Assembly (NCBI RefSeq): GCF_000738775.1
Contig: NZ_JPOC01000029.1
Coordinates: 1 to 64,000 of the forward strand
Length of the DNA stretch: 64,000 nt
DNA from: Prescottella defluvii
GTDB lineage: Bacteria; Actinomycetota; Actinomycetes; Mycobacteriales; Mycobacteriaceae
Direction of reading: 5' to 3'
Part shown: piece by piece, positions 10,809 to 19,630 of the stretch
Position numbering within the stretch: the stretch's first letter is position 1
How the letters are laid out: each line of letters starts with the position of its first letter
Position numbers and translations under genes: made by a program
Notes under the pieces: model-generated
Told to the model about the DNA's origin: nothing
The model's database searches: none
The model's input: only the letters and a program-made list of their open reading frames with translations

Positions 10809-11453
10809 GTGACACACCTGGTTCTCGCCTCGGCGTCCCCGGCACGGCTTTCCGTGCTGCGGGGCGCCGGGGTCGAACCCACCGTCCGCGTCTCCGGCGT
10901 GGACGAGGATGCAATCATCGACCGCCTGGGGCCGTCCGCCGCCCCCGAACTGGTCGTCACCACGCTCGCCGAGGCCAAGGCCCGCGACGTGATTCCCGCC
11001 CTGAATGCCGAGGGCATCACCGACGCCGTCGTGATCGGCTGCGATTCGATGCTGCTCATCGACGGCGAACTGCAGGGCAAGCCGCACACCGTCGACGTCG
11101 CCCGCCGCCGCTGGAAGTCCATGGCCGGCCGCAGCGCGACGCTCCTGACGGGGCACAGTGTGCTCCGCACCGCCGACGGTGCGGTCGTCGCCGAGTCGTC
11201 GGATCACAGTGGCACCGTCGTGCACTTCGCATCGCCGTCCGATGCGGACCTCGAGGCGTATCTCGCGACCGGGGAGCCGTTGAAGGTCGCCGGCGCCTTC
11301 ACCCTCGACAGCCTCGGCGGCTGGTTCGTGGAGCGGATCGAGGGCGATCCGTCGAGCGTCGTCGGGATCGGCCTGCCGCTGGTGCGGCATCTGCTCACCG
11401 ATGTCGGCGTCGGGATCGCCGACCTGTGGGCCGCGAACACTCCGGTTCGCTAG
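10809..11453 (+). CDS. maf: Maf-like nucleoside triphosphate pyrophosphatase
   Basis: Maf proteins hydrolyse non-canonical or specific nucleoside triphosphates (dTTP/UTP types) to monophosphates and have been linked to cell-division arrest. The N-terminal signature LVLASASPARLSVLR and the central GCDSMLLIDGELQGKP are present, as are GRSATLLTGH and EPLKVAGAFTLDSLGG. It is 214 residues long, normal for the family. The GTG start lies 17 bp after the accE5 stop, so it is probably in the accD5-accE5-maf operon, an order shared with mycobacteria. Confidence 0.94.
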   Translation: MTHLVLASASPARLSVLRGAGVEPTVRVSGVDEDAIIDRLGPSAAPELVVTTLAEAKARDVIPALNAEGITDAVVIGCDSMLLIDGELQGKPHTVDVARRRWKSMAGRSATLLTGHSVLRTADGAVVAESSDHSGTVVHFASPSDADLEAYLATGEPLKVAGAFTLDSLGGWFVERIEGDPSSVVGIGLPLVRHLLTDVGVGIADLWAANTPVR

Positions 11454-11460
11454 TCCCGGT

Positions 11461-11829
11461 TCAGTTCCACCCTCGCTGCAGGGCCGCAGCCATCGCCCGC
11501 GCCTTCGTCTTGGCCCGATCGGCGTTCGGTCCCGCGAACTCTTCGTCCACCACCGCGCACCACAACGCCAGCCAGCGTTCCAATCGTTCGCCCGCGAGGC
11601 CGTGCTGTCGGTGCAGCGCGTCGTGCACGGGTCCGAAATGCCCCTGATATCTGACCGTCCGGAACAGGATCTGTTCCCAGAAGTCGCCGACGACGGGTAG
11701 GTGCTCGTCGAGTCCCACCACCGCGAGCGTCTCGAACGCCGGCGCCAGGAGCGGGTCGACCAGCGCCCGCTCGTAGAACGCGCGCAGCAGTCGGTCGATG
11801 TCGGCGCGACCGGTGAGGTCGGGATCCAT
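11461..11829 (-). CDS. Group III truncated hemoglobin
   Basis: A 122-residue globin-like protein. The pattern LLRAFYERALVDPLLAPAFETL, then FWEQILFRTVRYQGHFGPVHDALH, fits group III truncated globins, which bind haem and small ligands such as O2 or NO; the likely proximal His is in the VHDALHRQHG stretch. The ATG follows the TAG stop of the upstream MFS gene with no spacer, so expression is tied to that transporter. It is convergent with maf. The physiological role is not known. Confidence 0.85.
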   Translation of the reverse strand: MDPDLTGRADIDRLLRAFYERALVDPLLAPAFETLAVVGLDEHLPVVGDFWEQILFRTVRYQGHFGPVHDALHRQHGLAGERLERWLALWCAVVDEEFAGPNADRAKTKARAMAAALQRGWN

Positions 11830-13593
11830 CTACCGCGAGTTCCCCACGGCGACACGCGCTTCGACCGGTTCCGACGACTCGACCGCGTCGTCCTCCTCGA
11901 CCCTGTTCCAGCGCGGCAGGGTGAGCGACCCGAGCGCGAGGAGGACACCGATGCCACCGACGACCCACAGCACTCGCCGCTCGGCCTGCAGGAACGCCTC
12001 ACCGGCCGCGGCCCGTGCCGAGTCCAGTGACACCGCCAGCGCCTTGTCGACGATCTGCTGCTGCGCGCCCGTCAGCGAGCCGCCCCCGCCGAGATCGGCG
12101 CAGCCGTCCGGCACCCGCGCCGGATGCGACGACGACAGCTGCTCGGTGGCGCAGTCCACGAACTTCTTCTCCACCTGCGGGATCAGCGGGGCGGGTACTC
12201 CGGCGGACGTCAGACCGGCCACCAGGTCGCCGCGCTGTTGCTGCACCGCGTCGGGGGCCGCGACCGCGACGAGGCCGAAGAACACCACACCGATCACCGA
12301 CAGACCGATTGCACTGCCCACCTGCTGGATGGTGGGCAGCAGGCCGGACACGATCCCGGCCTGCTCCTGACGGACCGAGGCCAGCACCGCCGTCTGCAGC
12401 GACGCGACGAACAGGCCGAGTCCGACACCGCCGACGACGAGTGGCCCGGCCAGCGCCGACAGGCCGGGATCGGTGCCCTCCCGGTGCAGGACCTCGGCCA
12501 GCGCCACCAGCGATCCGGCGAACAGCACCATGCCGAGCGGCAGGACCAGGTTGCCGATTCGCCGGTACACCAGTGCGGCCAGCGGGGCGGCCAGGCCGGT
12601 CCCCACGGCCCACGGCAGCGTGGTGACACCGGCCTTCAGCGCCGAGAACCCGAAGCCGAACTGGAGGGTCAGCGAGATCGTGAAGATCATCGACGTCAGG
12701 GTGCCGAAGAACAGGAACACCATGATCGCGCCGCGGGTGAAGGACCGGTCGGCGCACAGGTCGATGCGCAGTACCGGGTCGCCGCCGCGGCGCGCGAGTC
12801 GGCGCTCGTACACCACGAACACCACCAGGACCGGCACGGACATCGCGAGCATCGTGATCAGCACCGGTGGCCAGCCCCGCTCCCGGCCCTCGACGAGCGG
12901 CCAGATGAGCAGCAGCAGACCGAGCGCCGACAGTGCCGCTCCGACCGGGTCCAGTCGCCGGGGCGTCGGTGGGCGGGCGTCGAGCAGATACCGCCAGGCG
13001 ACGCCGAGGGCGAGCAGGCCCAGCGGCAGATTGACCAGGAAGATCGTTCGCCAGCCCCATCCGAACAGGTCCCAGGCGATCAGCAGACCACCGACGAGCG
13101 GGCCGGAGACGGTGGCCAGGCCGATCGTCGCACCGTAGATGCCGAAGACGCGGGCGTGGCGCGACTTCGGGAACAGTCCGGCGATGAGGGCGAAGGTCTG
13201 CGCCGACATCGATCCGGCGGCCAGGCCCTGGACCGCGCGCGCCAGCACCAGCCACAGCGGGTCCTGCGCGAGACCGCACAGCAGGGACGCCAGCACGAAG
13301 ACGGACATCGCGGCGAGGAACACCCGTCGCCGGCCCAGCATGTCGCCGAGTCGGGCGGCTGTGATGAGGGTGCACGCGAACGCCAGGACGTACACGCTGA
13401 CCATGAGCAACTGCGCGGACGAGTCGGCGCCGAGGTCGGACGCGATGCTGGGCAGTGCGACGTTCATGATCGTCGTGTCGAGCAACTGCATGAACACCGC
13501 GAGCAGGCTGGCGGTCAGGCCCAGCCACGCCCGACGTGGGGGCGGGTACGTCACGGTGTCCGATGGCGTCGGATGCGGCTGCAAAGTTGACAC
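11830..13593 (-). CDS. DHA2-type MFS multidrug exporter
   Basis: A 587-residue member of the EmrB/QacA drug:H+ antiporter family with about 14 membrane helices. Motif C-like residues (GPLVGGLLI) follow the RHARVFGIYGA loop, and motif A-like residues (ADLGRRRVF form LGDMLGRRRVF) lie after helix 2. A large extracytoplasmic loop with two Cys (VDCATEQL, DGCADLGG) precedes the final helix, which is followed by a charged cytoplasmic tail. The substrate cannot be read from sequence. It is divergent from the first PapA-type acyltransferase, so export of the product of that cluster is possible, but this is inference. Confidence 0.9.
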   Translation of the reverse strand: MSTLQPHPTPSDTVTYPPPRRAWLGLTASLLAVFMQLLDTTIMNVALPSIASDLGADSSAQLLMVSVYVLAFACTLITAARLGDMLGRRRVFLAAMSVFVLASLLCGLAQDPLWLVLARAVQGLAAGSMSAQTFALIAGLFPKSRHARVFGIYGATIGLATVSGPLVGGLLIAWDLFGWGWRTIFLVNLPLGLLALGVAWRYLLDARPPTPRRLDPVGAALSALGLLLLIWPLVEGRERGWPPVLITMLAMSVPVLVVFVVYERRLARRGGDPVLRIDLCADRSFTRGAIMVFLFFGTLTSMIFTISLTLQFGFGFSALKAGVTTLPWAVGTGLAAPLAALVYRRIGNLVLPLGMVLFAGSLVALAEVLHREGTDPGLSALAGPLVVGGVGLGLFVASLQTAVLASVRQEQAGIVSGLLPTIQQVGSAIGLSVIGVVFFGLVAVAAPDAVQQQRGDLVAGLTSAGVPAPLIPQVEKKFVDCATEQLSSSHPARVPDGCADLGGGGSLTGAQQQIVDKALAVSLDSARAAAGEAFLQAERRVLWVVGGIGVLLALGSLTLPRWNRVEEDDAVESSEPVEARVAVGNSR

Positions 13594-13646
13594 AGGACGC
13601 CCTTCACTTTACCGATCTTGAAACGTGTTCTTTCCCAAGAATGCAT

Positions 13647-13682
13647 GAAAGTAGACACTTTCGAGACCTTCCCGCCTAATCT
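13647..13682 (+). promoter_or_regulatory. Candidate promoter and operator of the acyltransferase operon
   Basis: A perfect inverted repeat GAAAGT-AGAC-ACTTTC lies at 13647-13662. It covers a possible -35 (TAGACA, 13652-13657), which is 19 bp from a good -10 (TAATCT, 13677-13682). The site is between the divergent MFS exporter and the first acyltransferase, so one regulator could control both. Confidence 0.4.
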
Positions 13683-13740
13683 CGTGAGCGCGCTCGGGGG
13701 TGACTCTGAGCACACCCCACCACCACGACCGCGCGCAGCG

Positions 13741-13780
13741 CCTCCTGGCGACGAGTCGCGGGAGGTGTGCCCGCTACACC
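13741..13780 (+). promoter_or_regulatory. Overlapping leader hairpins before the first acyltransferase
   Basis: Stem one pairs CCTCC (13741-13745) with GGAGG (13761-13765) around an inner GCGA/TCGC stem. Stem two pairs GGTGT (13764-13768) with ACACC (13776-13780). The two share bases and cannot form together. The start codon is at 13796. Confidence 0.3.
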
Positions 13781-13795
13781 TTCGGAGTGCCTTGC

Positions 13796-15277
13796 ATGGA
13801 GCTCAACCTGATCACCCATTGGACGCCGCCATCGGGGCGGCTCGTCGAGTGGACGGTCAGTGATCACGCGGCTCGTGTCGCGGCGGAAGCCGCGATCGAT
13901 CCGGCACTGCCGTCCACAATCCAGGAGCGTCACCTGCGCCGGGCCGCGGTGACGGCACGGACCTCAGCCGCCCAGTCACCGTGGATCGGCATGGCCTTCG
14001 AGATCGAGGGCCCACTGGACGCCCCGGCCATGACGCGGGCCATCGAGACCTACCTGCGCCGGCACGAAACCTTCGCGAGCTGGTTTTCGTTCGAGGACCC
14101 CGACGCCGATCCCACCGATGCGGGCAACCCGATCCGCCGGCACGTCGTCCCGGCGGAGGGGATCGAGCTCGAGCCCCGGATCATCGACGAACACGCGAGC
14201 TCCGAGCAGATCCGCAAGCACGTCGAGCACCGGTTCGCGACCGGCACGTCGGCGCTGTCCTGGCCGGCGTTCGTGTTCGGCGCCGTCGAGCACGACACCG
14301 GCAGCGGCGAGACCGGGGCCGACGCGGCCCGGTTCACGGTGTTCCACGCCGTCGACCACGCGCACACCGATGCACAGTCGATGCTGCTCACGTTCGCCGA
14401 GCTGCGGACCCTGTACCTCGCCGAGGTGTCCGGCACGCCGGCCGAGCTGCCCGACGCGGGCAGTTTCGTCGAGTTCAGCCAGCAGGAGCAGGAGCGGGCC
14501 AAGGCGCTGACCCTGGCGTCGCCGCAGGTCACCGGCTGGCTGTCGCATCTCGCCGAGCACGGCGGCACCCTCCCCAGCTTCCCCCTCGACCTGGGTGTCG
14601 AGGACGGTCCCCGGCCCGCGGTGGGCTCGCGCTTCGACCTGGCGGACCCCGTGCAGAGCGCGCGGTTCACCGAGGTCGCGGCGGCGCACGGCGGGAACGC
14701 CATCGGCGCGTGGTTCGCGGCGCTGGCGATCGTCGAGCACGAGCTCGCCGGTCGGGACCGGTACCTGGGGCTCACTCCGGTGGGCACCCGCGGGGCCGAC
14801 TTCGCCTGGTCGCAGGGCTGGTTCATCAACGTCATCCCGGTGAGCTTCGGCCTCGACGGCGCCACCAGTTTCTCCGAACTCGCCTCCCGCGCGCGGGAGG
14901 CCTACCGGGGCGGTCGCGCGCTCGCGGACGTCTCGGTTCACCGGGTGATCGACATGGTGCTGGCCGCCGCCGGCGACGGCGCCTCGGTCGCCCCGTCGAC
15001 GCTGTCGGTACCGCCGATCGTGTCGTACCTCGATGTGCACCGACTGCCGCTCGACGCGGCCACGGTCGCGGCGTCCCACATCACCGGCCTCGTCGGCGGC
15101 AAGGACACCTCCATCGTGTCGATGTGGATCAACCAGTTGCACGACAGCACCTGGATCGCACTGTCCCACCCCGACACCCCGGCTGCGCACGACTCCGTGA
15201 GCCGCTACGCGGAGCGGTTGGGCGTCATCATTCGCACCGTCGCCGACACCGGCGACTACACAATCGGAAAGGGGTGA
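13796..15277 (+). CDS. PapA-type condensation-domain acyltransferase 1
   Basis: A 493-residue enzyme of the chloramphenicol acetyltransferase/condensation superfamily, in the branch of mycobacterial PapA proteins that transfer acyl groups from a thioester to an alcohol on a lipid. The catalytic HxxxD is His188-Asp192 (DHAHTDA); the usual Gly after Asp is Ala. [10 protein letters not shown] (about 260) and SQGWFINVIPV (the channel loop) are shared with the two other copies nearby. The ATG at 13796 was chosen because it aligns with the starts of the paralogues. It is 5 nt from the next gene, so an operon. Acyl donor and acceptor are unknown. Confidence 0.85.
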   Translation: MELNLITHWTPPSGRLVEWTVSDHAARVAAEAAIDPALPSTIQERHLRRAAVTARTSAAQSPWIGMAFEIEGPLDAPAMTRAIETYLRRHETFASWFSFEDPDADPTDAGNPIRRHVVPAEGIELEPRIIDEHASSEQIRKHVEHRFATGTSALSWPAFVFGAVEHDTGSGETGADAARFTVFHAVDHAHTDAQSMLLTFAELRTLYLAEVSGTPAELPDAGSFVEFSQQEQERAKALTLASPQVTGWLSHLAEHGGTLPSFPLDLGVEDGPRPAVGSRFDLADPVQSARFTEVAAAHGGNAIGAWFAALAIVEHELAGRDRYLGLTPVGTRGADFAWSQGWFINVIPVSFGLDGATSFSELASRAREAYRGGRALADVSVHRVIDMVLAAAGDGASVAPSTLSVPPIVSYLDVHRLPLDAATVAASHITGLVGGKDTSIVSMWINQLHDSTWIALSHPDTPAAHDSVSRYAERLGVIIRTVADTGDYTIGKG

Positions 15278-15282
15278 TCGAC

Positions 15283-16659
15283 ATGCACGTCACCGCTATC
15301 GACCGCTACCACGTCACACCCGGCGAGCTGACGGAATGGCTGGTCACCCCGGACCCGGGGACGGTCACCGACTCCGATCTGCTGCCGTCGTACAACCAGC
15401 ACTTCCACCTCGAGACCGCGCGGATCCACGGCGCCGGGCGCAGCGTGTGGATGGCCGCGGCCTTCGACCTGCCGATCCGCCTCGACCGGGAGGCGCTGGC
15501 GCGGGCGTTCCGGTTGTTCATCGAGCGGCACGACAGCCTGCACACCGGGTTCGAGGTGACTCCGGATTCGATCGGCCGGGTCGATTTCGATCCTCGGCAG
15601 GTACGCGTGACCCCGTCGCCGTCGCAGGTGTTCACCGCGTCGGACGATCTGCGCGACCACCTGCGCGGCCGCTTCACCGAGGTGTGCGACCCGCTGACCG
15701 CACCCGCCTACATGTTCGCGACCATCGAGCGGGACACCTCGTCGACGATCATCGCCGCGTTCGACCACACCCTGGTCGACGGCTACTCGCTGGTGTTCGC
15801 GCTGGCGGACCTCCGTCGGCTGTACGAGGAGTGCGCCGGTCTGACACCGGCCGTCGATCCGCATCCGGCGGGCAGCTTCGTCGCGTTCTGCCGGGACGAG
15901 GCCCGGTCCCCCGCGATCGCCGACAGCGATCCGCGGATCGCCGCGTGGGCGCACTTCTACTCGCTCTGCGGCGGGACGTCGCCCAGTTTCCCGCTGGATC
16001 TGGGTGTGGAGGCGGGGTCGCCGGTGCGGCAGGCCGCCGACGTCCGTCCCCTGCTCGATGCCGAGGCCACCGCACAGTTCGAGCAGCTGTGTGTCGCCGC
16101 GGAGGGCAGCGTGTTCACCGGTGTGCTCACCGCGATGGGCACCGCGATCCGCCGCGCCGGCGGTCCGGCGCTGCTGCCGCTGCAGTTCCCGCTGCACGCC
16201 CGCAACGATTCGCGGTGGGCGGAGGCGATCGGCTGGCTGACCACCAACGGCCCGATCACGGTGTATGCCGACGACGTGGACTTCACGACCGATCTGGCGC
16301 GCACGCACGCCTCGTTCCGGGCGGCGCTGGACGTGCAGGGTGTGTCGATGGCGCAGGTCCGCAACAGCATGGGCGACCGGTACCGGCGGGTCCGCACGGA
16401 CGTCTTCATGGCGTCGTACATCGACTACCGACGGCTGCCGGGCACCGCCGACCACGCGACGCTCAACGCCCACCACATCAGCAATGTCACGGTGGCCGAC
16501 GACGCCCAGTTCTGGATCTCGCGCACCGAGTCGGGTCTGGCGTTGCGGTCCCGATTCCCCGACACCGCGGTGGCGCACGCGACGATCGAGGGGTTCCTCA
16601 CCGAGCTTCGTGCGGTGCTGACGGCCGCGTGCCGTCCGGCGGTGGTCCCGGCGACCTGA
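15283..16659 (+). CDS. PapA-type condensation-domain acyltransferase 2
   Basis: A 458-residue paralogue of the preceding gene. The catalytic motif is complete: His162-Thr-Leu-Val-Asp166-Gly167. N-terminal [15 protein letters not shown] and the [10 protein letters not shown] motif match copies 1 and 3, as does [10 protein letters not shown], the counterpart of the channel-floor loop. A GGAAAGGGG ribosome binding site spans the end of copy 1, so the two are co-transcribed. PapA-type enzymes act on cytoplasmic carrier-bound acyl chains; the lipid made here cannot be named. The protein is well below 50 percent identical to copy 1 by eye, so an old rather than recent duplication. Confidence 0.87.
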
Positions 16660-16744
16660 GGCTCGCGGTGACCTGAGGCAGGTTGTGCGGGTGCGACTAG
16701 AATCGACACGCACAGCCTGCCACCACTGCTTCAGGAGCCCACCC

Positions 16745-17656
16745 GTGCCCGTCGCGCCCGACCCCCATCCCGCGTTCGCTGCGTATACCCATCCGGAGCG
16801 ACTCGTCTCGACCGAGTGGCTGTCCGTCAACCTGGGCACCCCCGGTGTGAAGGTGGTCGAGTCGGACGAGGACGTCCTGTTGTACGACATCGGCCACATC
16901 CCCGGCGCGGTGAAGATCGACTGGCATCTGGATCTCAACGATCCGGTCACCCGCGACTACATCGACGGTGCGGCGTTCGCGGACCTGATGAGCCGCAAGG
17001 GCATCTCCCGCGACGACACGGTGATCATCTACGGCGACAAGAGCAACTGGTGGGCGGCGTACGCGCTGTGGGTGTTCACGCTGTTCGGGCATCAGGATGT
17101 GCGCCTGCTCGACGGCGGCCGCGACGCGTGGCTGTCGGAGAACCGGGACACCACGCTCGACGTCCCGGCGCCGCCGCCGACGCAGTACCCGGTGATCGAG
17201 CGGGACGACACCACGATCCGGGCGTTCAAGGACGACGTGCTGGCGCATCTCGGTGCCGGTCCGCTGGTCGATGTGCGCTCCCCGCAGGAGTACACCGGCG
17301 AGCGCACCCACATGCCGGACTACCCGGAGGAGGGGGCGCTGCGCGGCGGTCACATCCCCACGGCGATCTCGATTCCGTGGGCGCGGGCCGCGGCGCCGGA
17401 CGGGCGGTTCCGCAGCCGTCCCGAGCTCGAGGAGATCTACGCCGACTTCTCGCGTGACGACGACATCGTCGCGTACTGCCGTATCGGGGAGCGGTCGAGC
17501 CACACGTGGTTCGTCCTCACCCATCTGCTCGGGTTCCCGAGCGTCCGCAACTACGACGGCTCGTGGACGGAGTGGGGCAACGTGGTGCGGGTGCCGATCG
17601 TCAAGGGCGACGCGCCGGGTCTGGTTCCGGGCGCCACCGAGGAGGCGGCGTCGTGA
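16745..17656 (+). CDS. sseA: Thiosulfate sulfurtransferase (double rhodanese)
   Basis: A 303-residue protein of two rhodanese domains that moves sulfane sulfur from thiosulfate or 3-mercaptopyruvate to a thiol acceptor. The N-domain (about 15-135) is inactive in form; the C-domain has the catalytic Cys245 in [10 protein letters not shown], with CRIGER as the active loop. The GTG at 16745 was chosen because AGGAG lies 7 nt before it and the conserved part begins soon after. It overlaps the SufE-like gene by 4 bp (GTGA). Position next to that gene and upstream of accA3 matches mycobacterial Rv3283. Confidence 0.95.
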
Positions 17657-18066
17657 GCGTGCCGGACAGCCTCGCCGAGATCGTCGACGACTTCGCCGCG
17701 GTCGGCGCGCAGGACAAGCTGCAGTTGCTGCTGGAGTTCAGTCGCGAGTTGGCACCGCTGCCCGCCGAGCTCGAGCAGGACGCGATGGAGCCGGTCCCGG
17801 AGTGCCAGTCGCCGCTGTTCCTGTTCGTCGACAGTTCGGACCGGGAGAAGGTGCGGTTGCATTTCAGTGCTCCCGCCGAGGCTCCGACGACGCGGGGCTT
17901 CGCGTCGATCCTCCATCAGGGGCTCGACGGGCACAGCGCCGCAACGATTCTCGCGGTTCCCGACGACTTCTACGCGGACCTCGGCCTGGCCGACGCCGTC
18001 AGCCCCCTGCGGTTGCGCGGTATGAGCGCGATGCTCGCACGGATCAAGCGGCACCTCCGCAACTGA
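17653..18066 (+). CDS. SufE-like sulfur acceptor protein
   Basis: A 137-residue SufE-family protein. The sulfur-accepting Cys sits at residue 51 ([14 protein letters not shown]), the same position as Cys51 of Escherichia coli SufE, and the downstream [13 protein letters not shown] and [21 protein letters not shown] match the family core. SufE takes persulfide sulfur from a cysteine desulfurase; the overlap with sseA suggests that here it may instead, or also, accept sulfur from the rhodanese. Corresponds to mycobacterial Rv3284. Start GTG overlaps the sseA stop. Confidence 0.93.
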
Positions 18067-18116
18067 TCGTGCGTCTCGCGTAACACCTGACCCAATTCAC
18101 CCGAAACAGCAATGAC

Positions 18117-18179
18117 CCGGGGAGCGACCCTCCCCGGCAACTTCGACTGTGACGATCTTCACTGCCGCCACCGCGGCGG
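18117..18179 (+). promoter_or_regulatory. Two hairpins between sufE-like gene and acyltransferase 3
   Basis: A perfect 8-bp stem (CCGGGGAG/CTCCCCGG, loop CGACC) occupies 18117-18137; a second stem (CCGCC/GGCGG) occupies 18165-18179. The first may terminate the sseA-sufE transcript, although no T-run follows; alternatively both belong to the leader of acyltransferase 3. Confidence 0.4.
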
Positions 18180-18202
18180 AACAAGAGACTGGATTCTCCA
18201 CG

Positions 18203-19630
18203 ATGGAATTCACCGAGCTCGCGGATTACGCGATCTCCCCCGGCATGCTCACCGAGTGGTTACCCGAAGCGGGGCCCGGGTGGGTGGAGGACGGCCGTCC
18301 CGCCTCCTACATCCACGAGGCGCACCTGCGGCGGACCGCGGACAGCACCCACGACGACGGCCGCGAGTCGTGGCTCGGGACCGCTTTCCGCCTGCCCGGG
18401 TCGCTCGATCACGACGCGTTCCGCACCGCGGTCCGTGCGTGGATCACCCGGCACGAGCCGCTGCGCAGCCAGGCGGAACTGCTCGCCGACGGGCGGGTCC
18501 GCCGGTACACGATCGACGCCGACCACATCGATCTCAATGAGGTTCGTCACGAGTACGAGTTCGACGCCGATACCGTCTTCGAGCGGGTGCACGATCTGTT
18601 CGACGAGCTGACCTCACCGCATCGCTGGCCGGCCTATCTGTTCGTCACGCTCGAACACTCGGACCCCGAGCCGGGCTGCACGGTGTTCTTCGCCGCGGAT
18701 CATTCGCTGATCGACGGACTGTCGGTGGTGCTGGTCGCGCACGAGATCACCCGTCTGTACACCGAGGCGCTGACGGGCAGCCCGTCGGATCTGGTTCCGG
18801 CCGGCAGCTACATCGATTTCGGTGCGGAGGAACGCGCCGCCGCGGCGACGGTCGATCACCGGCACCCGGCCGTCGACTGTTGGCGGACGGCCTTCGTGCG
18901 CAGCAAGGGCCGGCTGTCGGATTTCCCCCTCGATCTGGGGCCGCGGCCGGAGAATCGGGTCGCGCAGCAGGCGGTCTCGGAGTGGGTGTTCGACGCCCGC
19001 CAGGCCGCGGCCTTCAACACGGTGTGCCACCGCGCCGGGCAGAACTTCTTCGCCGGCGTTCTCGCGTGCCTGGCCCAGTCGAATGCCGAACTCACCGGCA
19101 ACACGGTGTTCCGGACGGTGACGCCGGTGCACACCCGCCACGATCCGCACTGGGCGACGTCACTCGGCTGGTTCGTGGGCCTGACCCCCGTCGAGTTCGA
19201 CATCGCCGGGGCCGCCGACTTCGCCGAGTCCGCGGCGCGCGCGGCTGCCGCGGTGTCGTCGACGAAGTCGGCGGCGAAGGTGCCGTTCGCCCGGGTGGAG
19301 GAGATCCTCGCGACTCCGATCCGACCCCGGTTCGTCGTGTCGTTCATGGATGTCCGTTTCGTTCCGATGGCTCAGCAGTGGCCCGAGGTCCAGGCGCGCG
19401 CCCTCCGCAGTCGTCACTACACCCACGACGTGTACATCTGGGTGAACCGAACGCCCCACGGGCTCAACGTCTCCGCACGGTTTCCGGGAACACCCACCGC
19501 GATCGAGGCGGTCCGGCTCTTCCTGAACCGGGCCAGGCGGGCCCTGCTGGAGGTGGTTCCGGCCGAGGAACCGGCCCGCACCGTCGCACCGGCCGTCGCC
19601 GCGGGAATCCATACCACTACTGATCAGTAG
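18203..19630 (+). CDS. PapA-type condensation-domain acyltransferase 3
   Basis: The third paralogue, 475 residues from the ATG at 18203. The HxxxDG motif is intact (His167, Asp171, Gly172, in DHSLIDGLS). Also shared are ADYAISPGMLTEWLP at the N-terminus, FPLDLGPRPE and SLGWFVGLTPVEF. An upstream in-frame GTG at 18149 would add 18 residues, but the chosen start aligns with the other copies. It is separated from copies 1 and 2 by sseA and the sufE-like gene and lies just before accA3. Likely esterifies a lipid or sugar alcohol with an acyl chain; the substrate is unknown. Confidence 0.87.
   Translation: MEFTELADYAISPGMLTEWLPEAGPGWVEDGRPASYIHEAHLRRTADSTHDDGRESWLGTAFRLPGSLDHDAFRTAVRAWITRHEPLRSQAELLADGRVRRYTIDADHIDLNEVRHEYEFDADTVFERVHDLFDELTSPHRWPAYLFVTLEHSDPEPGCTVFFAADHSLIDGLSVVLVAHEITRLYTEALTGSPSDLVPAGSYIDFGAEERAAAATVDHRHPAVDCWRTAFVRSKGRLSDFPLDLGPRPENRVAQQAVSEWVFDARQAAAFNTVCHRAGQNFFAGVLACLAQSNAELTGNTVFRTVTPVHTRHDPHWATSLGWFVGLTPVEFDIAGAADFAESAARAAAAVSSTKSAAKVPFARVEEILATPIRPRFVVSFMDVRFVPMAQQWPEVQARALRSRHYTHDVYIWVNRTPHGLNVSARFPGTPTAIEAVRLFLNRARRALLEVVPAEEPARTVAPAVAAGIHTTTDQ

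Follow-up and report, generated by a model that had tools for sequence, protein, structure and literature searches.

In Mycobacterium tuberculosis, PapA2 is reported to catalyze the first acylation of sulfated trehalose (PMC6996325), and PapA3 to transfer palmitoyl onto position 2 of trehalose, followed by a polyketide chain onto position 3 (PMC4183827); PapA3 is partnered by Pks3/4, FadD21, Chp2 and MmpL10, and the sulfolipid enzymes include Chp1 and MmpL8 (PMC4183827, PMC6996325). Rhodococcus sp. I2R (16S similarity of 98.6% to R. yunnanensis and 98.0% to R. fascians) is reported to make succinoyl di-, tri- and tetraesters whose sugar part is either a disaccharide, assigned as trehalose, or a trisaccharide, assigned as trehalose plus glucose. 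Its contig 9 holds the genes papA3, papA1 and papA3 (1461, 1431 and 1404 bp) followed, after a gap of ~1.5 kb, by another papA3 (1488 bp). These four clustered genes are the nearest I2R homologs (~30% similar) of TlsA from Rhodococcus sp. SD-74, a putative acyl-CoA transferase that is key in succinoyl trehalose lipid (PMC8396431). In the accessible parts of the respective reports, papA is also mentioned, without a functional test, for R. opacus S8, an Arctic Rhodococcus and serpentinite strains.

Here we analyze a stretch of 64,000 nucleotides from Prescottella defluvii (positions 1 to 64,000 of NZ_JPOC01000029.1, hereafter the window), which is part of contig C29 of a draft genome (5.13 Mb, 265 contigs, completeness 99.98%) and carries three genes, papA_a, papA_b and papA_c, interspersed among the core genes sseA, sufE and accA3. 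We conclude, with moderate confidence, that the three encoded enzymes would use acyl-CoA to acylate several sites of a trehalose-type glycolipid, the product being perhaps exported by a major facilitator superfamily (MFS) protein encoded next to them. The set of the window belongs to an old gene set that is also present in related bacteria and resembles a set associated in the literature with trehalose surfactant lipids. In the full-text literature within reach, which leaves out most subscription journals, we found no earlier description of papA genes in an accA3 operon.

Family assignment of the three proteins

The three genes are open over their full length:

13796-15277, plus strand: papA_a, 493 aa, likely PapA1/2/3-type acyltransferase of orthogroup a, which holds M. 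tuberculosis PapA2; Condensation 49.1 bits; HAHTD
15283-16659, plus strand: papA_b, 458 aa, likely PapA-type acyltransferase of orthogroup b; Condensation 42.1 bits; HTLVD
18149-19630, plus strand: papA_c, 493 aa, likely PapA-type acyltransferase encoded between sufE and accA3; Condensation 85.8 bits; HSLID

Condensation (PF00668, cut-off 30.6 bits) is the sole Pfam family reported at E<=0.1 for any of the three proteins, all of which contain FPLDLG and retain the catalytic HxxxD. They are 24.7-28.6% identical to each other, in agreement with the initial annotation, which described them as three divergent condensation-domain proteins sharing these motifs; the N-terminal (S/T)PG-x-L-x-EW motif that it also assigned to all three is found in papA_b (TPGELTEW) and papA_c (SPGMLTEW) and is replaced by PPSGRLVEW in papA_a. 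A phmmer search against the PDB retrieved the trehalose-2-sulfate acyltransferase PapA2 (6aef) as the top match for each protein (E-values of 2.9e-47, 4.5e-28 and 8.1e-42 for papA_a, papA_b and papA_c, respectively; 25-29% identity). Together, these observations suggest that the three are likely O-acyltransferases of the PapA1/2/3 type and that the lipid-acylating role proposed for several PapA-type enzymes in one locus is likely as well. The likeness to M. tuberculosis PapA1/2/3, for which PapA2 was the protein compared, consists in the free-standing Condensation family domain and the HxxxD motif.

Among the BLAST-matched open reading frames (ORFs) with at least 380 aligned residues, the histidine and aspartate of HxxxD are present in 99 of the 100 aligned rows, the papA_c pieces of locus L046 and one small piece of L056 having been left out. 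The exception is the papA_c of R. ruber (L054:9998-11422), in which proline stands in place of the histidine and which may be an inactive copy; the R. aetherivorans protein (L057) retains the histidine.

Membership in three other families was considered and rejected. The NCBIfam model of PapA5, the phthiocerol dimycocerosate enzyme, gives 14.4 bits for papA_a, no match for papA_b and 22.8 bits for papA_c, at a cut-off of 396; no Pfam model for wax ester synthase/diacylglycerol acyltransferase matched at E<=0.1; and the proteins are single-domain, of 458-493 aa, not condensation domains embedded with adenylation and carrier modules of a nonribosomal peptide synthetase (NRPS).

Phylogeny and age of the paralogs

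A quick tree with SH-aLRT (Shimodaira-Hasegawa-like approximate likelihood ratio test) support was built from 83 rows, namely 80 PapA-like sequences, including PapA2, and three NRPS condensation domains of the same genome as the outgroup, after removal of 8 near-duplicate rows and then of 13 more (one NRPS row, the others PapA rows). In this tree, all 80 PapA-like rows are united in a single group apart from the NRPS domains (support 100). This separation bears on the alternative that the three are stray NRPS condensation domains serving large NRPS enzymes in trans. They do match PF00668, which has 55 matches in the genome, these three included, 50 of the matches being in open frames of 2,617-8,953 aa, and a large condensation-domain ORF lies upstream of sseA in one locus of the genus coded g21 (L154). 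Given the separate grouping and the conserved neighbors, which are sseA, sufE and accA3, we consider a function in trans very improbable. NRPS frames of up to 8953 aa are found on contigs C8, C20 and C21.

Within the PapA-like group, orthogroups a (with PapA2), b and x are supported at 99, 99 and 100, respectively, and orthogroup c falls into two parts (77 and 100), the union of which has a support of just 44; the join of orthogroup a with x and c is supported at 6. Inside clade a, PapA2 and a gene from g29 are paired with papA_a of the window and its relatives from g23, the R. erythropolis-type genus, which includes R. erythropolis and R. qingshengii (support 85). Because the papA genes of the window belong to three old orthogroups, they are old paralogs and not the product of a recent local expansion.

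Gene order and distribution among genera

The neighbors of the papA genes in the window are the following:

11461-11829, minus strand: small ORF, which we take to be trHb-like (haemoglobin-like), at the edge of the MFS-papA_a-papA_b block; adjoins sseA in the other Prescottella loci read
11830-13593, minus strand: MFS transporter (DHA2/EmrB-like), candidate exporter, divergent from papA_a; MFS_1 157.5 bits
ORF 16685-17656, start more likely near 16745, plus strand: sseA, core gene; Rhodanese 116.2 bits
17650-18066, plus strand: SufE-domain protein (sufE), core gene; SufE 106.3 bits
19735-21579, plus strand: accA3, core gene, acyl-CoA carboxylase biotin carboxylase/carrier subunit; Biotin_carb_N/C, CPSase_L_D2 and Biotin_lipoyl

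No Pfam family reaches its cut-off in the small ORF, and the MFS protein scores 216.3 bits against the EmrB model, slightly below the cut-off of 230.2. The full order is accD5, accE and maf on the plus strand, the trHb-like ORF and the MFS gene on the minus strand, and papA_a, papA_b, sseA, sufE, papA_c and accA3 on the plus strand, where the labels accD5 and accE are presumed from position; the placement of two papA genes before sseA and one between the sufE-like gene and accA3 is thus as originally described. An alignment suggests an sseA start near 16745 rather than at the ORF start of 16685, and the leader directly 5' of sseA (16560-16760) is common to Prescottella genomes that lack the block. 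Given this shared leader, sseA likely begins near 16745 and retains its own leader. A scan for sigma-70 promoters and terminators found none, with the proviso that the sigma-70 model may not suit this organism.

The distribution of these genes was mapped in a census with one genome per genus, in which accA3 was found in 30 of 31 genera (coded g1 and so on, g1 being Prescottella, with P. equi, P. agglutinans, P. subtropica and P. defluvii, and g27 holding R. gordoniae and R. coprophilus). Four genera were represented by loci L092, L095, L103 and L105, from regions picked for papA matches; the stretches of g19, g14 and g3 are short, and contig ends reduce the upstream part in L152, L163 and L177. 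In this census, papA_c lies before accA3 in 10 of the 30 representatives (g1, g6, g7, g9, g10, g16, g18, g21, g23 and g30), retaining this site even in loci without other papA genes, and papA_a plus papA_b lie upstream in five (g6, g10, g16 and g18, with a fourth gene, papA_x, and g23, with the MFS gene instead); the g29 representative has accD5-maf-sseA-sufE-accA3 without papA. The 20 regions from which these four loci were taken, and a set of 10 more, were picked for papA matches and hence overstate frequency. Among named records, a search with papA_c, which selects for that gene, gave 20 from Rhodococcus and Prescottella, and in all of them papA_c is located between sufE and accA3 (in pieces in L046 and L056; the upstream part of L050 is missing). 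The distribution by genus does not support the idea of an accessory pathway peculiar to this locus.

Indeed, an operon with four papA genes (papA_x, papA_a, papA_b, sseA, sufE, papA_c, accA3) is found in loci of g6, g9, g10, g16 and g18 and, reordered, in one g30 locus; in two g6 loci, maf is inserted between papA_b and sseA. Since relatives of all three proteins occur in the same order in other genera, a chance arrangement is ruled out. Strong papA_b matches (E < 1e-64) were counted by hand in 58 of the 201 genomes of the family among the matches listed. With genus denominators that cover 198 of the 201 genomes, and again among the matches listed, they are present in all or most genomes of g23 (14/14), g6 (12/15), g10 (9/9), g18 (8/8), g20 (4/4), g8 (2/2), g16 (1/1) and g28 (1/1), and are sparse in g9 (3/14), g15 (1/4), g30 (1/14), g22 (1/14) and g1 (1/14). 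For g8, g15, g20, g22 and g28, the papA trio was found in a retrieved stretch without accA3.

The closest counterpart of the window is the g23 operon, in which the MFS-papA_a-papA_b block is present in the same gene order in all nine accA3-operon loci read; the PapA and MFS proteins are 44-68% identical to those of the window (80% for one MFS fragment), and the trHb-like gene is placed differently. In the literature within reach, this g23 operon is not treated as a system. The divergent MFS gene, the product of which the initial annotation named as a possible exporter, accompanies papA_a and papA_b in 10 of the 10 loci that have papA_a-papA_b without papA_x (the window, L049, L051-L053, L105, L106, L108, L147 and L148, the MFS gene of L106 being in two pieces).

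The I2R cluster is close in gene number, gene lengths and gap to the four-papA accA3 operon of g6. In the g6 locus L144, three ORFs of 1506, 1470 and 1380 bp, measured from their first possible start, are separated by ~1.57 kb, which sseA and sufE fill, from an ORF of 1449 bp. Judging by these lengths, the two may be the same locus. The window differs from the I2R cluster, as far as the available part of that report describes it, in having three genes, an MFS gene, and neither papA_x nor a nearby glycosyltransferase gene. TlsA of SD-74 is likened here by its published description, not by sequence.

Several additional copies were observed in g23. Four genomes of this genus (G083, G097, G122 and G155) carry a second papA trio elsewhere, among the matches listed. 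Such a second trio, papA_x-a-b-like, is seen in R. erythropolis-type genomes in stretches without accA3 (L141:8753-13069 and L142:7098-11372), with a pyridine-nucleotide oxidoreductase and a zinc dehydrogenase nearby in L141. Two g23 genomes have a lone extra papA_b (54-57% identity) near an ORF of ~1300 aa (L143:9119-10522 and L146:8905-10527), and one has a second accD5-accA3 pair (L157:11071-14779), with accA3 86% identical to that of the window and no papA found alongside. In P. defluvii SampleD3_15 (L046:4488-17152), birA, accD5, sseA, papA_c, accA3 and one more gene each appear as overlapping fragments (three in the case of papA_c), in a manner that resembles read errors.

Origin of the MFS-papA_a-papA_b block

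The block either was transferred into this Prescottella or goes back to an ancestor shared with g23 and has disappeared from the remaining species, and we regard these two histories as evenly balanced. papA_a is present in 1 of 14 Prescottella genomes, that of the window, and in the other 13 the best papA_a matches are papA_c or NRPS domains. A near relative (genome G142, locus L107; papA_c 94% identical) has maf, the trHb-like gene, sseA, sufE, papA_c and accA3, the trHb-like gene and sseA being only ~100 bp apart at the site that the block occupies in the window. In L105 and L106, by contrast, the block lies between maf and the trHb-like gene, an order that suggests separate insertion; no trHb-like gene was detected in L049, L051-L053 and L108. 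All of this speaks for transfer. On the other hand, the ratio of the window-g23 distance to the distance within g23 is 1.19 for papA_a, 1.27 for papA_b and 1.66 for the MFS gene, against 0.64-2.41 for other genes; the GC content of the block is 0.70-0.71 versus 0.68-0.69 in the flanks; and an ungapped scan of 11300-16900 showed no repeat pair at the block ends, no search having been aimed at mobile genes. Sequence divergence and GC content thus do not point to a recent transfer of the block. A recent transfer from the sampled Rhodococcus was rejected, the best identities being 60% for papA_a and 65% for papA_b among the matches listed, and 68% for the MFS protein over its full length. The window holds a three-enzyme form of a set that, with four enzymes (papA_x-a-b plus papA_c), is probably older.

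Acyl donor and export

The initial annotation had mentioned (methyl)malonyl-derived chains as what PapA enzymes attach to surface lipids; such chains, made by a polyketide synthase (PKS), are not supported by the genome. A ketosynthase scan of the genome gave three strong matches (285, 165.5 and 73 bits), the carriers of which are Pks13 (2456 bits, cut-off 2100), KasA/KasB (723.6 bits, cut-off 560) and a protein of 3158 aa that contains FabD- and FabF-like parts and that we read as similar to type I fatty acid synthase (FAS-I); none of the strong matches in this draft assembly is a Pks2- or Pks3/4-type synthase. Because the strong ketosynthases are limited to these three, we regard ordinary acyl-CoA as the likelier source of the chains and a donor of the Pks2 or Mas kind as unlikely. 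One trio locus (L149) lies near genes for a thiolase and an enoyl-CoA hydratase/hydroxyacyl-CoA dehydrogenase, neighbors that fit acyl-CoA donors.

An MmpL8- or MmpL10-type gene was not found beside the locus, the MMPL matches of the genome being on contigs C7, C8, C13, C29 (87866-89797), C47 and C51, and a scan for the PE-PPE domain (Chp-type) gave one weak match, on another contig. Thus, in contrast to the sulfolipid and diacyltrehalose systems of M. tuberculosis, which use a PKS and MmpL, the genes of the window are part of an accA3 operon with an MFS gene, and no such PKS was found. In one g18 locus (L091:9741-11632), genes for an ABC-2 type permease and an ABC ATPase are divergent from the papA set; it is possible that these proteins are an exporter that replaces the MFS protein.

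Acceptor and proposed pathway

In the pathway that we favor, papA_a, papA_b and papA_c are probably cytosolic, and the HxxxD histidine would serve to move an acyl group from acyl-CoA to a sugar hydroxyl, the acceptor being most likely trehalose or a trehalose-based glycolipid. The three enzymes would work at different positions or on successive intermediates, with chains drawn from FAS-I or beta-oxidation acyl-CoA rather than from a PKS of the mycocerosate type, and the product may leave the cell through the divergent MFS protein. Two or three acyl groups on one acceptor, as suggested in the initial annotation, appear plausible.

A clue to the acceptor comes from glycosyltransferase genes. In a hand count over retrieved stretches of 8-21 kb, plus the 64 kb window (L178 repeats the L041 region), GT28/EryCIII-like genes were found in 14 of the 21 loci with a papA_x-a-b trio, including L090 and L144, from which the query proteins were taken, in 0 of the 10 MFS-a-b loci and in 2 of the 47 others. 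The presence of GT28/EryCIII beside the trio fits a sugar acceptor. The sequence does not reveal which acceptor this is, and it could instead be a glycoside built by GT28/GT2 enzymes, a peptide product or one resembling a glycopeptidolipid, or a lipid alcohol; the GT28/EryCIII genes, along with GT2 genes beside the trio in other genera, would be in keeping with this alternative. Of the PapA2 residues placed near the acceptor by docking (P171, T307, T324 and S384, according to the available part of PMC6996325), S384 alone is kept in all three proteins, and the equivalent of T324 is kept in papA_b. Nevertheless, PapA2 is located within orthogroup a, the published producer of trehalose esters has a similarly laid-out papA set, as far as the available part of the report describes it (PMC8396431), and the PapA5 scores given above argue against a lipid alcohol. 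Accordingly, we consider an acceptor other than trehalose unlikely.

Several observations weigh against the acyl-CoA-dependent trehalose pathway. The identity of papA_b to PapA2 is merely 24.8%, and the pairing of papA_a with PapA2 (85) is weaker than clade a itself (99). Nine further ketosynthase matches (20.5-30.4 bits, covering 32-86 of 252 positions in frames of 392-748 aa) exceed the Pfam cut-off, one of them when counted together with its neighbors; these are presumably thiolases and the like. A PKS could also be absent merely from the 265-contig draft, its high completeness notwithstanding. GT28 is absent from the retrieved stretch in 7 of the 21 trio loci, and neither GT28 nor GT2 has a match in the window, the two EryCIII-like matches over the cut-off in this genome being on other contigs. 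Only gene lengths and spacing tie the I2R cluster to the accA3 operon, and the available part of the text on I2R contains no mention of accA3. Finally, PapA3 is reported to add two groups alone, and the trehalose lipid of R. fascians BD8 is described as bearing just one acyl chain, which is branched (PMC6198247), so that 'one PapA, one chain' fails as a rule and the number of genes cannot be read as the number of chains.

A broader scenario, which we offer as an improbable speculation, is that the accA3 operon of an ancestor of several Mycobacteriales genera held a PKS-free four-enzyme pathway for a polyacyl-glycolipid (papA_x, papA_a, papA_b and papA_c, with one acyl position each), and that PapA2 and its kin (PapA2 alone having been placed in the tree) are offshoots of orthogroup a later recruited to polyketide lipids. 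Under this scenario, the group moved by papA_c may be a dicarboxylic one linked to the carboxylase (malonyl, methylmalonyl or succinyl), which would account for the acidic succinoyl group of these lipids.

Implications

Little is known of the genes responsible for trehalose acylation in rhodococcal surfactants, and the three or four PapA enzymes that several genera share in synteny offer a defined set of genes with which the assembly of trehalose lipids can be tested. If the acyl-CoA-dependent pathway is correct, PapA enzymes would acylate without a PKS in relatives of mycobacteria, the acyltrehaloses of which need related enzymes together with polyketide synthases. Within Prescottella, the MFS-papA_a-papA_b block marks one species whose lipids are expected to be unlike those of P. 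equi.

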